Shown one piece after another: positions 680-13,857 of a stretch of DNA of 38,320 nucleotides (positions are counted from its first letter, which is position 1; the number at the start of each line of letters is the position of its first letter). The translations under genes were made by a program, and so were the position numbers. Origin of the DNA: Methanobacteriota archaeon (GTDB taxonomy: Archaea > Thermoplasmatota > Poseidoniia > Poseidoniales > Thalassarchaeaceae); assembly GCA_002698225.1 (NCBI GenBank), contig NZWD01000033.1:14996-53315 (forward strand), in the 5' to 3' direction. The notes beneath the pieces are model-generated. The model was not told where the DNA came from. It did no database searches and worked only from the letters and a program-made list of their open reading frames with translations.

Positions 680-1711
680 CTATCTCTCCTGAATTACCCA
701 TTCAATGATGTTTGAATTAGGATTGAAGTCATCCAACTTATCGAGCATTAGCCCATCTATGGCTTGTTGGACTAAGGTTTCGTGATCCGCCTCTAAGTTA
801 CCATAATAATGACGACCAGCATCAAGCATTGCTTCTAGAGGAACCAATCCCACTAGTTCTCCTGCAACTGCCTCTAGGCCAATCTTTGCAGCCTCTTCGC
901 ATATGGCATCTGTTACATGATGCAAACCAGTCACAGAGTATTCTAACAGATTCATAGAGACTTGGGCGGTATCATCATCGTACATCCATCCCGCGGCTTG
1001 AAGGTGCTTGAACAATCCTGGATTCCTGAGAGCTTTGCCATTATCATCACGGATTATAGCACCATCATCGTCTTTGACAACCGAGCCGCTAGTTCGGAGT
1101 TTGGAAGCAATCGAGTTAGCTTTCTTTTTATCATCTGTATTGAGATTTACATTGTAGGCAATTAGCAGACTCCTTGCACCAGTCGCGGTTGCACCCATAG
1201 TGGGCATGAACTGTGCAGGGCCGTAGTCAGGTTTCCATTCGTCTGTAATGATTTTCTCTGCTAATCCTTCATACTCGCCTTTCCTGATTTCGGGAAGTCT
1301 TAATCGCTGTTCTGTAGCGGCTGAATTGGCATACAAGAAAACTGGTAGTGAGTGTTCTTCTGACACCGAGATACCGTATCTTCGAGATAGATCAACACAT
1401 TCTGACATGGTTACGCCACTAATTGGAATGAAAGGCACGACATCCACAGCACCCATTCTAGCATGCTCGCCAGAATGGCTTCTCATGTCGATTAGTTCTA
1501 GTGCGACTGTTGTACAAGCAATTACGGTCTCTAATACCGCTTCAGGCTCACCGACCATTGTAACAACTGTACGATTGAAGTCACCTCCCATGTCAATGTC
1601 AAGTAGAGAAACGGCTGCATTATCGATGATGGGCTGAACTATTGAATCGATAATCGAGCGGTCTTTGCCTTCGCTAAAGTTCGGAACACACTCGACTAAG
1701 CGCTGATTCAT
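680..1711 (-). CDS. ftcD: Glutamate formiminotransferase
   Basis: 343 aa; 'LVECVPNFSEGKD', 'HSGEHARMGAVDVVPFIP' motifs of formiminotransferase N/C subdomains. Confidence 0.9.
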   Translation of the reverse strand: MNQRLVECVPNFSEGKDRSIIDSIVQPIIDNAAVSLLDIDMGGDFNRTVVTMVGEPEAVLETVIACTTVALELIDMRSHSGEHARMGAVDVVPFIPISGVTMSECVDLSRRYGISVSEEHSLPVFLYANSAATEQRLRLPEIRKGEYEGLAEKIITDEWKPDYGPAQFMPTMGATATGARSLLIAYNVNLNTDDKKKANSIASKLRTSGSVVKDDDGAIIRDDNGKALRNPGLFKHLQAAGWMYDDDTAQVSMNLLEYSVTGLHHVTDAICEEAAKIGLEAVAGELVGLVPLEAMLDAGRHYYGNLEADHETLVQQAIDGLMLDKLDDFNPNSNIIEWVIQER

Positions 1712-9012: not shown

Positions 9013-10248
9013 TTAAGCAGGCAATAGTCTGGCCCAGCCCTTCAGAGTTAGGAATGTTGCCAAGCTCTCAGGAACGGTAAACACATCACCAATAGAACCT
9101 TCAATCTCGCAGTCTAATACCCTTGCACGAACATCATCCTGTTTCAATTCTACATCAAAGGAACGCGTTGAACCTAGTGCCACACATTCAGACAAGGCAT
9201 CAAATGGGTCTGAACCATCAGGATTTAGTCTTTCTAATGGGAACTCAGTCACTCGGAGACCACACTTGCCATGTAAACTACCAATCCACCTAATGACTCG
9301 TTTTACATCTACTGTGACATTTTCATCAGTTTCACCAGCACCACCCAGCACCACTGCTGAATCGCCCTTCACAAGTTCCCAAAATGCTGCAGTTTGTTGT
9401 TCTCCGAATACCGTTAGTGATGTATCGGATTTTAACCTGTCAATCTTGGTATCATTTAGACATTGATCGGCAAGGCTGACAATTTTCTTTTTGGTAAATG
9501 ATTTGACTGTAGAATCGGGGCTACGGATTCTCTGTTTCATGACCGCATCAAGCTCCCCAAGTATTCGGTTTCCAATGTCTTTCTTTAGTGCGATATTTTG
9601 CAATTTATGGATTATTGTGTCGGTTCCATTCAACACTCTATCCCTCCATCCTCCGGAACCATTTCCAATTACTGCATTCACATTTATTCCCTCTCCGCGG
9701 ATATAATTCACTAATTGCCTACGAGCATTTGAGTCTAAGTGTAGATAGGATGGATCTCTCAGGTGTAAATGGAATCCACGATGCCCAGAGAATGCAACCT
9801 GTAGGTATTTTTCATCGAATCCAAACTCCGGCGAAAGGTAATCCGACCAGAGGCTCCATGCCTGTTCTTGGATTAGTTCAAGCATGCTGGGGAAGTCTCG
9901 ATCAGAAACTCCAGGGAGATGGTCTCCATCAAGGTCGAAAATTAAGTCGGCACCTTTCCAGTCCTTATCCAACATCTTTCTCTGTGAAGGGTCTGCATAA
10001 TATGCAGTACTGTGAAAACATGAATGTGGAGATTTAGTCTGAAGGTAATTGTGTAGGGAAGATTTGTCTGAAAATCCCCTGTGCCTATCTGGCGGTTTAT
10101 CACCCCAGGGAATGAACATCCATTCCCTTGATCTGAATCTAGGAGGTGTCCAAAGTGAGTCAGTAGAGAGTGAGTTATAGTACTCAGAAAACCTGACTGC
10201 GAAACGGCTCCAGCCCTCTGCCATGTAGTGATTGGGGGGTTGAGGCAA
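9013..10248 (-). CDS. priS: DNA primase catalytic (small) subunit PriS
   Basis: 411 aa; 'ADLIFDLDGDHLPG' catalytic acidic motif and 'VAFSGHRGFHLHLRD'. Confidence 0.92.
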   Translation of the reverse strand: MPQPPNHYMAEGWSRFAVRFSEYYNSLSTDSLWTPPRFRSREWMFIPWGDKPPDRHRGFSDKSSLHNYLQTKSPHSCFHSTAYYADPSQRKMLDKDWKGADLIFDLDGDHLPGVSDRDFPSMLELIQEQAWSLWSDYLSPEFGFDEKYLQVAFSGHRGFHLHLRDPSYLHLDSNARRQLVNYIRGEGINVNAVIGNGSGGWRDRVLNGTDTIIHKLQNIALKKDIGNRILGELDAVMKQRIRSPDSTVKSFTKKKIVSLADQCLNDTKIDRLKSDTSLTVFGEQQTAAFWELVKGDSAVVLGGAGETDENVTVDVKRVIRWIGSLHGKCGLRVTEFPLERLNPDGSDPFDALSECVALGSTRSFDVELKQDDVRARVLDCEIEGSIGDVFTVPESLATFLTLKGWARLLPA

Positions 10249-10258
10249 ATGAACTTGG

Positions 10259-10453
10259 CTAATCTAAATCAAGATTTACAATCTCTCGTCCATCGGTAGA
10301 AGGCTCTGCTCCGGTTAACTCGATATAGGCCTCCCAGCAAACATACTTGTCATCTAAGACGAGAGCTTCGGCGAATGTCATTGCCTTACCAGTATGAGAA
10401 CATACGGGCCCCAGTTGTCCGGTTGCCGTAGAGAGTTTCGATGCATCTGGCAT
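10259..10453 (-). CDS. Small uncharacterised protein upstream of priS
   Basis: 64 aa ORF ending 10 nt upstream of priS start, same strand. Confidence 0.5.
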   Translation of the reverse strand: MPDASKLSTATGQLGPVCSHTGKAMTFAEALVLDDKYVCWEAYIELTGAEPSTDGREIVNLDLD

Positions 10454-10549
10454 GACATGTCCACAATGCCGTGGCTATTGACTCTTACTTATGTGAAGTA
10501 CCGCTCCAGTAGGCGTTTAGTAGTAGCAATTACGCGACCCGATTATCAT

Positions 10550-11398
10550 ATGTTGATACGTATTGGCCATTCCCCCGATCCGGATGATGCATTCATGTTC
10601 CATGCAATGACAACTGGACTCATTGATACTGACGATAGGAGGTATGAACATTGCTTGTTAGATATAGAAACTCTCAATCAGAAGTCCATGGAAGGGGAGT
10701 TCGAAGTTTCTGCGGTCAGTATACATTCATACCCCAAGATTTCACATCATTATGCACTAACAAACTGTGGAGCTTCAATGGGAGAAGGTTACGGGCCGAT
10801 ACTGATTTCTAACAAATCATCTACTATTGAAGAAGCTACTAACTCAGTTATCGCCATTCCGGGTTTAGGGACTAGTGCATACCTAGGTCTACGTCTTGCA
10901 CTAGGAGATGTGAAAACTGCCATAGTCCCATTCGATGAAATCATACCATCACTACAAAGTGGAGAGTATGATTTTGGCGTAATTATTCACGAAGGTCAAC
11001 TAACATGGTCAGAATACGGCATGCACAATATTCTGGACTTAGGAGAATGGTGGAGAGATCGTACAGGCGGTCTTCCATTACCATTGGGGGGTAATATTGT
11101 GCGCAAGGATCTTGGAGAGGATCTGTGTTCCAATATAGCGGATGACATCAAACATAGCATCCTATATGCACTGGAAAACCCGGATTCAGCACTTGAGTTC
11201 GCAAAACAATGGGGCCGTGGAATCGATGACGATACCAATAGGAAATTCGTAGGAATGTATGTCAATTCTAGAACAATTGACTATGGTCCTGATGGTAGGG
11301 AGGCTGTACGAAGATTCCTTAGAGAGGGGCAGGAAATTGGATTAGTTGAGGAAACATTCGATGTTAGTTCGATAGTCTTCGTCGGGAGCGAATCATGA
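10550..11398 (+). CDS. mqnD: 1,4-dihydroxy-6-naphthoate synthase-like (futalosine menaquinone pathway)
   Basis: 'IGHSPDPDDAFMFHAMTTGLID' and periplasmic-binding-like fold sequence; start refined from 10394 to ATG 10550 (the longer form overlaps the 64-aa ORF). Confidence 0.87.
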   Translation: MLIRIGHSPDPDDAFMFHAMTTGLIDTDDRRYEHCLLDIETLNQKSMEGEFEVSAVSIHSYPKISHHYALTNCGASMGEGYGPILISNKSSTIEEATNSVIAIPGLGTSAYLGLRLALGDVKTAIVPFDEIIPSLQSGEYDFGVIIHEGQLTWSEYGMHNILDLGEWWRDRTGGLPLPLGGNIVRKDLGEDLCSNIADDIKHSILYALENPDSALEFAKQWGRGIDDDTNRKFVGMYVNSRTIDYGPDGREAVRRFLREGQEIGLVEETFDVSSIVFVGSES

Positions 11399-11871
11399 CA
11401 GAGAAGCCCGAAGTCAGTGAGTTTGGTTCTGTCGATCCAGCACCGCCTTCGGACAGTGGTAAGATTTCTGAATTTAGAGCAGTTATTTGCGACGAAAATG
11501 CGCGCATGTTCTTACGAATGAGAGCATTATTCGCATTGAGAAATTCTGGTGGCCCCGATGCTCTCGATGCACTGGCAGCAGCATTCTCTTCCAAGTCTGC
11601 ACTTCTCAAGCATGAAATTGCATATGTTATGGGCCAGATGCAGGATTCGTATGCAGTGCCTTATCTAATCGAACGACTAAATGATCATAATGAGGATCTA
11701 ATGGTTAGGCACGAAGCTGCAGAAGCTTTGGGAGCCATTGGGGATAGGACTGCCCTAGACACACTTTTTGCATTTAGAGACGATCCTGAGCCTGTAATCT
11801 CAGAGTCTTGCGAAGTCGCCATTGATTTACTAGAATGGGTAGATAGCAAGAGATTGAACTATGAGGATTAG
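11395..11871 (+). CDS. HEAT-repeat protein resembling one half of deoxyhypusine hydroxylase (candidate DOHH)
   Basis: 158 aa; 'FGSVDPAPPSDSG', 'MRALFALRNSGG', 'SALLKHEIAYVMGQMQD', 'LMVRHEAAEALGAIGD'; His73-Glu74 and His106-Glu107; ATGA overlap with mqnD. Confidence 0.75.
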   Translation: MTEKPEVSEFGSVDPAPPSDSGKISEFRAVICDENARMFLRMRALFALRNSGGPDALDALAAAFSSKSALLKHEIAYVMGQMQDSYAVPYLIERLNDHNEDLMVRHEAAEALGAIGDRTALDTLFAFRDDPEPVISESCEVAIDLLEWVDSKRLNYED

Positions 11872-12707
11872 TCTAGTTTTGCCCATTCAACGCCCCCTCT
11901 GACGCCACATACCAAGTCGAGGTAGAGTTCCAATCCACGTTCAGCATCAGTATCTAATCGGTTACAGACCTCTGTAGAATAGTAGTTATCCAGTCTTGTA
12001 GTAGACAGTCCAACAGTGGATGATGCATCATCAATAACACGACTCCTCCAAGTGATGTCCTGTTCGAATTTATCCAATTGATTAGTCATGTCTGAGTGAG
12101 CTCTAATCAAAAATCTAGGGTCAGTATCCTTCCTAGCAGCGAAGACCCCGAATACCATCGGAAGGCCTGTCATCTTGGTCCATTCGGCGGCTAGATCCAT
12201 AACAACAAGCTCGGGATTTGTTTTCGACTCCAGAAGTGCTCTATCTCCGATGATGAGTGCCCCATCGCACTCGGCCATCATCTCACCGAGATCTGGTGCC
12301 ATCTCAACACGTCGAGGATCTAGCCCTTTCTCATCCAGAATCCAATCTAGTAACTGTCTAGAAGATGATGAGTCAGTAGGTACTGCAATATCGCGCATGG
12401 AATCCAATGTCCTGTTACCAAATATCAGTACAGAACCAGTACTACCTCTGCCTACGATTGCTAGATCCGGTAGGAGTAGCAGTTCGTCTGTGTGTTTGGC
12501 ATAGTCCGCAGTCGGAATGGGAGCTGTGACGCAATCACGTCTGATTACATGTCCACAAAGCCACGATGGAGGTGCTGAGAATACCTTCCACCTGTCAGAA
12601 ATCCCGTTGAAGACGGGATCGCAATTACAGAAAGAAACACGCCCCAAAACATCCGTCCAACTCAAGATATCACCCACTAGAAATTGGTAGAGAAATGCTG
12701 GAGTCAT
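11868..12707 (-). CDS. mqnA: Chorismate dehydratase-like MqnA (futalosine pathway)
   Basis: 'LGRVSFCNCDPVF', 'LLLLPDLAIVGRGSTGSVLIF', 'CDGALIIGDRALL'; start uncertain, ORF open to 12776. Confidence 0.85.
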   Translation of the reverse strand: MTPAFLYQFLVGDILSWTDVLGRVSFCNCDPVFNGISDRWKVFSAPPSWLCGHVIRRDCVTAPIPTADYAKHTDELLLLPDLAIVGRGSTGSVLIFGNRTLDSMRDIAVPTDSSSSRQLLDWILDEKGLDPRRVEMAPDLGEMMAECDGALIIGDRALLESKTNPELVVMDLAAEWTKMTGLPMVFGVFAARKDTDPRFLIRAHSDMTNQLDKFEQDITWRSRVIDDASSTVGLSTTRLDNYYSTEVCNRLDTDAERGLELYLDLVCGVRGGVEWAKLD

Positions 12708-13857
12708 CAAATTCAACTTCAATGAATTCGTCGTATGTTGAGTTACGTCGAACGGGAGTTGAGTTTGTTGACTCAATCAGCCTTAACAAACCCCTCTCAG
12801 GCGTATCTAGCCTTGTTGTACTGCCAGCATCGTGCATTATCTCCTCGTGGCCAACAGTGCCGTCTATGTCATCAGCACCCGCGTTGAGACATATGGAAGA
12901 TAGATGATCGCCGAGATTCATTCTGTAAGCCTTGATGTGAGGGATGTTATCGAGCATCAATCGAGATACAGCAATCATCCTGACGACCTCACTTGAAGTA
13001 GCTAATTGTGCTTCAGGTAATCGGGAATGATCAGGGAGGAATGGGTATGGGACGAAGCACTGGAAACCACCTGAAGAGTCTTGTTGTTCACGAATTCTAA
13101 TCAAATGATGGATTCTATCGGATATGGATTCAACTGTACCGAATAACATTGTACAATTTGAACGAATTCCGATTTCGTGAGCTGTGGCGTGAACCTGCAA
13201 ATACTCATCGGATGACTCTTTACCACGGCAGATTCTATCTCTGACTGAGTCGACTAGAATCTCGGCACCTCCACCTGGTATCGAGTCTAGTCCAGCATCA
13301 CGCAATGTACGGAGTGTTTGTTCGATGGAGATGCCGGACCTTTTCGAAATGTGTATGATTTCTATTGCGGTTAGTGACTTAATGTGAATCCATGGGAACT
13401 CACCCTTGATGGCTGAGTATATCTCTGCATAGTGATCAACTTTCCAATCAGGATGAAGACCTCCAACAGAATGAACCTCATCGATATGTGTTGCCATTGG
13501 AGCAATCCTCTGAATAAACTCTTCAGTAGAAACTTCGTATGCATCAGAATGTTTGGAGCCTTTACGAAATGCACAGAACCTACAAGCAAGAACACAGATG
13601 TTGGTAGTATTAACATGCAAATTTCGATTGTAGAACACATTGTCACCAAATCGTGCATATTTGACCATATTTGCTAGAGAACTGATCCCCAATAGAGAAG
13701 GTTCGTTCATGAGATTAATTCCGTCCTCAGCAGATAACCTTCCCGTGTAGATTAATCTGTCCAAACAAGTAGTGAGTAGAGTGTTACTAGATACTGATAT
13801 AGGGACTTCAATAGATGATAGTCGCTCGCGCCAATCAGCGTTCTCACTCATTGACAC
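12670..13857 (-). CDS. mqnE: Radical SAM aminodeoxyfutalosine synthase (MqnE-like)
   Basis: 395 aa; 'NLHVNTTNICVLACRFCAFRKG' CxxxCxxC, 'EVHSVGGLHPDWKVDHY', 'IHIKSLTAIEI', 'GADDIDGTVGHEEI'. Confidence 0.85.
   Translation of the reverse strand: MSMSENADWRERLSSIEVPISVSSNTLLTTCLDRLIYTGRLSAEDGINLMNEPSLLGISSLANMVKYARFGDNVFYNRNLHVNTTNICVLACRFCAFRKGSKHSDAYEVSTEEFIQRIAPMATHIDEVHSVGGLHPDWKVDHYAEIYSAIKGEFPWIHIKSLTAIEIIHISKRSGISIEQTLRTLRDAGLDSIPGGGAEILVDSVRDRICRGKESSDEYLQVHATAHEIGIRSNCTMLFGTVESISDRIHHLIRIREQQDSSGGFQCFVPYPFLPDHSRLPEAQLATSSEVVRMIAVSRLMLDNIPHIKAYRMNLGDHLSSICLNAGADDIDGTVGHEEIMHDAGSTTRLDTPERGLLRLIESTNSTPVRRNSTYDEFIEVEFDDSSISLPISSG

Follow-up and report, generated by a model that had tools for sequence, protein, structure and literature searches.

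The window analysed here, a stretch of 38,320 nucleotides from a Poseidoniales (Marine Group II) genome that is 68% complete, contains a short gene for a half-size homologue of deoxyhypusine hydroxylase (DOHH), lying between genes reminiscent of menaquinone biosynthesis and close to a primase gene. The features referred to below are the following:

9013..10248, minus strand: DNA primase small subunit-like protein (PriS), a conserved neighbour in Poseidoniales
10394..11398, plus strand: MqnD-like protein (PF02621, VitK2_biosynth), upstream; its stop codon and the start codon of the half-size DOHH gene share the motif ATGA (11395-11398)
11395..11871, plus strand: half-size DOHH homologue, 158 amino acids, from translation, phmmer, Foldseek and conservation
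11428..11448, plus strand: SVDPAPP segment, residues 12-18, near the N-terminus
11611..11616, plus strand: His73-Glu74, aligned with H56-E57 and H207-E208 of human DOHH
11710..11715, plus strand: His106-Glu107, aligned with H89-E90 and H240-E241 of human DOHH
11868..12776, minus strand: MqnA-like protein (PF02621), convergent and downstream
12670..13857, minus strand: MqnE/CofH-family radical SAM protein, above cutoff for TIGR00423 and at 385.7 bits for TIGR03700 (MqnE), below its cutoff of 434.55

The frame at 11395-11871 translates into 158 amino acids followed by a stop codon. A sequence-only reading of the locus had proposed a candidate archaeal DOHH of half size with two His-Glu (HE) pairs, and had pointed to the segments SVDPAPP and ALFALRNSGG; both segments are present in the translation and the HE pairs fall exactly on the residues and codons that it gave. 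They are 33 residues apart, the same spacing as between H56 and H89 and between H207 and H240 of human DOHH, the human positions being taken from the literature (PMC9117371). Comparison of the gene with relatives from the same genus or the same family gave pS values of 0.70-0.90 and pN values of 0.09-0.21, the substitutions being overwhelmingly synonymous. Because pN is far below pS, these alignments indicate that the gene evolves under strong purifying selection.

Human DOHH was the best match of the protein in the PDB (phmmer, 4d4z, E 2.3e-70) and was aligned twice, with residues 5-148 of the query on its C-terminal half (126 bits, single-domain i-Evalue 8.8e-36) and residues 30-150 on its N-terminal half (112 bits, 3.2e-31). 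The alignment to the C-terminal half starts with the shared SVDPAPP. Among the matches listed, no single domain of the artificial HEAT (alphaRep) chains did better than about 7e-10; since the i-Evalues for DOHH are more than 20 orders of magnitude better, the match is far from chance. A profile built from 44 archaeal sequences matched human DOHH, again in both halves, with an E value of 9.3e-105. The archaeal halves share 43-52% identity with the human C-terminal half (48% for the window protein) and 38-44% with the N-terminal half, the two human halves being 39% identical to each other, and the archaeal sequences are no more distant from the human enzyme than archaeal families are from one another. 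The protein was modeled with AlphaFold2 as a helical-repeat solenoid (pLDDT 92.6), whose top Foldseek match in the PDB is again 4d4z (E 3.6e-11, TM 0.85 over the query), followed by alphaReps at about 2e-5; the same outcome was obtained for a distant family member (L036). The predicted fold is thus that of a DOHH arm.

A set of 129 half-size sequences of 148-169 amino acids, in which some genes occur twice via two collections and of which 50 remain at less than 80% identity, was used to assess conservation. H73, E74, G80, Q81, V104, R105, H106, E107, E110 and G113 are invariant in all 129, as are D14 and P15 of SVDPAPP, and M103 is conserved in 128. The residues that anchor iron in human DOHH are H56, H89, E90, H207, H240 and E241, and those assigned to the substrate are E57, E90, E208, E241 and G214 (PMC9117371). 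Their archaeal counterparts are among the invariant positions, in the right HE spacing and context; they are unchanged across families that differ at up to about 60% of their residues, so that every catalytic position is conserved and the DOHH reading is supported. The homologues always carry two HE motifs, and no fused two-arm copy was seen among the 129. A standard member of the family combines eight HEAT repeats, in two arms, with four HE motifs in a single chain of about 300 residues; the archaeal protein lacks this build and is best described as a half-size variant, which probably works like DOHH.

A match at E<=1e-8 was found in 110 of 393 Thermoplasmatota genomes. Four of these matches (families f16 and f54) lack the motifs and represent generic HEAT proteins; the remainder are half-size DOHH homologues or fragments, from the Poseidoniales families f1 and f2 and from f4, f15, f21, f31, f32 and f39. 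Half-size homologues of 148-169 amino acids are thus spread over at least eight Thermoplasmatota families, and both terms of the earlier description, archaeal and half-size, hold generally. The source genome itself probably belongs to Thalassarchaeaceae, as a Thalassarchaeum record (L094) scores 229 bits, in line with family f1, and Poseidonia records reach about 177 bits, in line with f2. When 85,462 species genomes were scanned with two motifs, 256 relatives were obtained, of which the best 80 were judged to be from Thermoplasmatota, a few of them under misleading titles; close homologues seem to be confined to this phylum. Three of the loci (L053, L067 and L088) are titled Proteobacteria, Rhodobiaceae and Halobacteriales and lie on contigs of Thermoplasmatota type, so these public records are probably mislabelled or misbinned. 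No match came from phage or plasmid collections, and viral contigs yielded one relative at 33% identity.

Within the genus of the source genome the distribution is patchy: six sampled genus mates are without the gene, and three further congeners have it at the corresponding locus, at 72-85% identity. The gene is also present in a single-contig Marine Group II chromosome (CM001443.1, L110). A binning artefact was considered and ruled out on both grounds, and because the three congeners have the gene in place, its absence from genus mates reflects repeated loss rather than misbinning. Remnants were seen as well. In the congener G080 (locus L145, about 1435-1500, minus strand) only the first ~25 residues, through SVDPAPP, are followed in frame by an unrelated open frame, likely a deletion chimera, and copies at L167 (2951-3112), L172 (2878-3089) and G108:C122:4338-4769 are fragments or contain in-frame stops, being apparently decaying genes. 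Four genomes (G164, G316, G320 and G377) have two copies on different contigs; one copy in G377, an f2 genome, resembles those of family f1, which suggests transfer or contamination.

A DOHH needs its substrate pathway, and the earlier reading had asked whether archaeal IF5A (aIF5A) and deoxyhypusine synthase (DHS) occur in the genome; both do. A single DHS is encoded in the source genome; it scores above the cutoff of an NCBIfam DHS equivalog and has a lysine in the motif SWGKVR; this SWGK lysine we take to be the equivalent of the human catalytic K329. It also has an aIF5A with a modifiable SKPGKHG loop. This aIF5A (G000:C22:3901-4062, L139) was found by PF21485 only and missed by PF01287, and it seems to have a divergent C-terminal domain. 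In several relatives there is also a second and more distant homologue of DHS, probably explained by speY, a DHS homologue making homospermidine that has been reported in Poseidoniales together with an arginine-decarboxylating SpeD (PMC10407285). As for oxygen, each of the nine carriers outside Poseidoniales has a gene for the haem-copper oxidase subunit COX1, compared with 75 of 266 genomes overall (Fisher p 8e-6, uncorrected for relatedness, the genomes not being independent). Many COX1-bearing genomes are without the half-size gene; the co-occurrence is as expected of an O2-dependent enzyme.

We consider it likely that the half-size protein is a DOHH that acts on aIF5A as a C2-symmetric homodimer with a diiron site. 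In human DOHH two four-repeat arms form a symmetrical dyad and cooperate in a single diiron centre (PMC8153317), the same three iron ligands coming from either arm (residues as in PMC9117371). Two half-size chains would together provide an identical set, and the protein probably works as a pair. The gene would then encode a one-arm form of DOHH, with four HEAT repeats, of which two identical chains would pair about a two-fold axis. Each chain would give His73, His106 and Glu107 to the metal site, and Glu74 and Gly80 to the substrate; together, the chains would rebuild the diiron site that eukaryotes form within a single duplicated chain. With O2, we infer, the dimer would hydroxylate the deoxyhypusine that DHS places on the GKHG lysine of aIF5A. 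Three observations speak against this role, namely that in the loci examined the gene is linked neither to DHS nor to aIF5A, that in Poseidoniales it forms an overlapping pair with an MqnD-like gene, and that it was lost repeatedly in Poseidoniales that keep the neighbouring genes, from which it follows that it is dispensable. Yeast lia1 mutants are also viable (PMC8153317).

That the protein is an ordinary PBS-lyase or HEAT-repeat protein, with its HE pairs there by coincidence, would agree with the Pfam search, in which HEAT_2 and HEAT_PBS, both general repeat models, were the only matches, and with the NCBIfam search, in which lyase models gave weak matches (NblB 33 bits against a cutoff of 300, CpcE 25 against 330); no DOHH model was returned from either database. 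However, no lyase or phycobilisome-degradation model was above its cutoff, i-Evalues of 1e-31 to 1e-35 place DOHH more than 20 orders beyond the generic HEAT chains listed, and SVDPAPP and both HE motifs are (nearly) invariant in the 129 sequences, whereas generic HEAT proteins from the same survey (L041-L044) have neither. Sequence searches and Foldseek agree on a match specific to DOHH, the comparison that the sequence-only reading had called for, and we regard a coincidence as extremely improbable. A DOHH homologue that acts on another protein or on a small molecule, or that keeps its metal site for a role other than hydroxylation, deserves more weight, as the function is read from homology and the gene is not genetically linked to either DHS or aIF5A. 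It is nevertheless unlikely in our view, since the counterparts of the human iron and deoxyhypusine residues are invariant, the sequence has moved no further from the human enzyme than archaeal families have from one another, and DHS and aIF5A are at hand.

The gene neighbourhood raises the question of whether a diiron hydroxylase derived from DOHH was instead recruited to menaquinone biosynthesis by the futalosine pathway, with the overlapping MqnD-like enzyme as its partner. The MqnD-like and half-size DOHH genes are adjacent in nearly all loci, in both Poseidoniales families, and their MqnA-, MqnE- and PriS-like neighbours are conserved in both as well. The MqnA-, MqnD- and MqnE-like proteins at 10394-13857 are below or outside the NCBIfam futalosine equivalog models, and for this reason the menaquinone genes of the source lineage are divergent; the true MqnD-like start is probably near 10550, because the alignment to most homologues begins there. 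Among Poseidoniales genomes the two genes are correlated in their presence: 96 have both, one the DOHH homologue only, 19 the MqnD-like gene only and 11 neither. The 19 count against a shared pathway: 17 of these loci were inspected, of which 15 have no trace of the half-size gene (one of them, G310, L170, ends 384 bases past the MqnD-like gene) and two (L167 and L172) have short fragments, and an eighteenth (G080) keeps the first residues only. Outside Poseidoniales, five of nine carriers are without an MqnD-like match at E<=1e-20, 30 MqnD-bearing genomes are without the half-size gene, and the readable neighbours in other families differ (iPGM and PurH; isocitrate dehydrogenase). Furthermore, the substrate-side residues match those of human DOHH, and to our knowledge none of the established futalosine steps requires a hydroxylase. 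Since each gene occurs without the other, a menaquinone role is weakened to the point of being quite unlikely, and we read the ATGA overlap as operon economy, not shared chemistry.

Archaea carry hypusine or deoxyhypusine on aIF5A, and papers of 2016 (PMC5178350), 2018 (PMC6105217), 2020 (PMC7432094) and 2021 (PMC8153317) state that no archaeal DOHH homologue had been found; in open-licence articles, preprints excluded, we found none on DOHH in Asgard or Thermoplasmata or on hypusine in Poseidoniales. If active, the half-size DOHH would close a gap in the pathway, no archaeal enzyme for this step being reported in the literature, and a candidate in the abundant marine Poseidoniales makes this missing step directly testable. 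Such an enzyme cannot account for the hypusine of Sulfolobus or of anaerobes, because its close homologues seem confined to Thermoplasmatota.

The half size also offers a working model for how a two-arm diiron enzyme could arise by gene duplication. Given the age of the half gene and its diversity within the phylum, the simplest reading is that it keeps the pre-duplication state. A homodimeric half of this kind would have been duplicated and fused to give eukaryotic DOHH, and the SVDPAPP linker would be what is left of the N-terminus of the second copy; we put this forward tentatively, at somewhat less than an even chance. An ancient transfer of the half gene may be the alternative origin. In a tree that included the two human halves, both formed very long branches and were not grouped together; a tree grouping them was not rejected (p-AU 0.35).

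Among known systems, human DOHH (PDB 4d4z and 4d50) and yeast Lia1 likewise have a HEAT-repeat fold and HE motifs 33 residues apart, and human DOHH has in common with the archaeal half the SVDPAPP segment and the MVRHE and LGQ contexts. In the human enzyme SVDPAPP links the halves, directly before the C-terminal one, whereas in the archaeal protein it is N-terminal. Eukaryotic DOHH has two arms and four HE motifs per chain; the archaeal protein has one four-repeat arm and two HE motifs, and unlike its eukaryotic relative would have to dimerise for a full site. The PBS-lyase HEAT proteins CpcE and NblB and the alphaRep designs have the HEAT_PBS repeat architecture in common with it, but score much more weakly, and the alignments inspected show neither paired HE motifs nor SVDPAPP in them. 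The bacterial EF-P hydroxylase EpmC (YfcM) is not known to be related to DOHH. It likewise acts on a modified lysine of a factor of the EF-P/IF5A family (PMC6105217).
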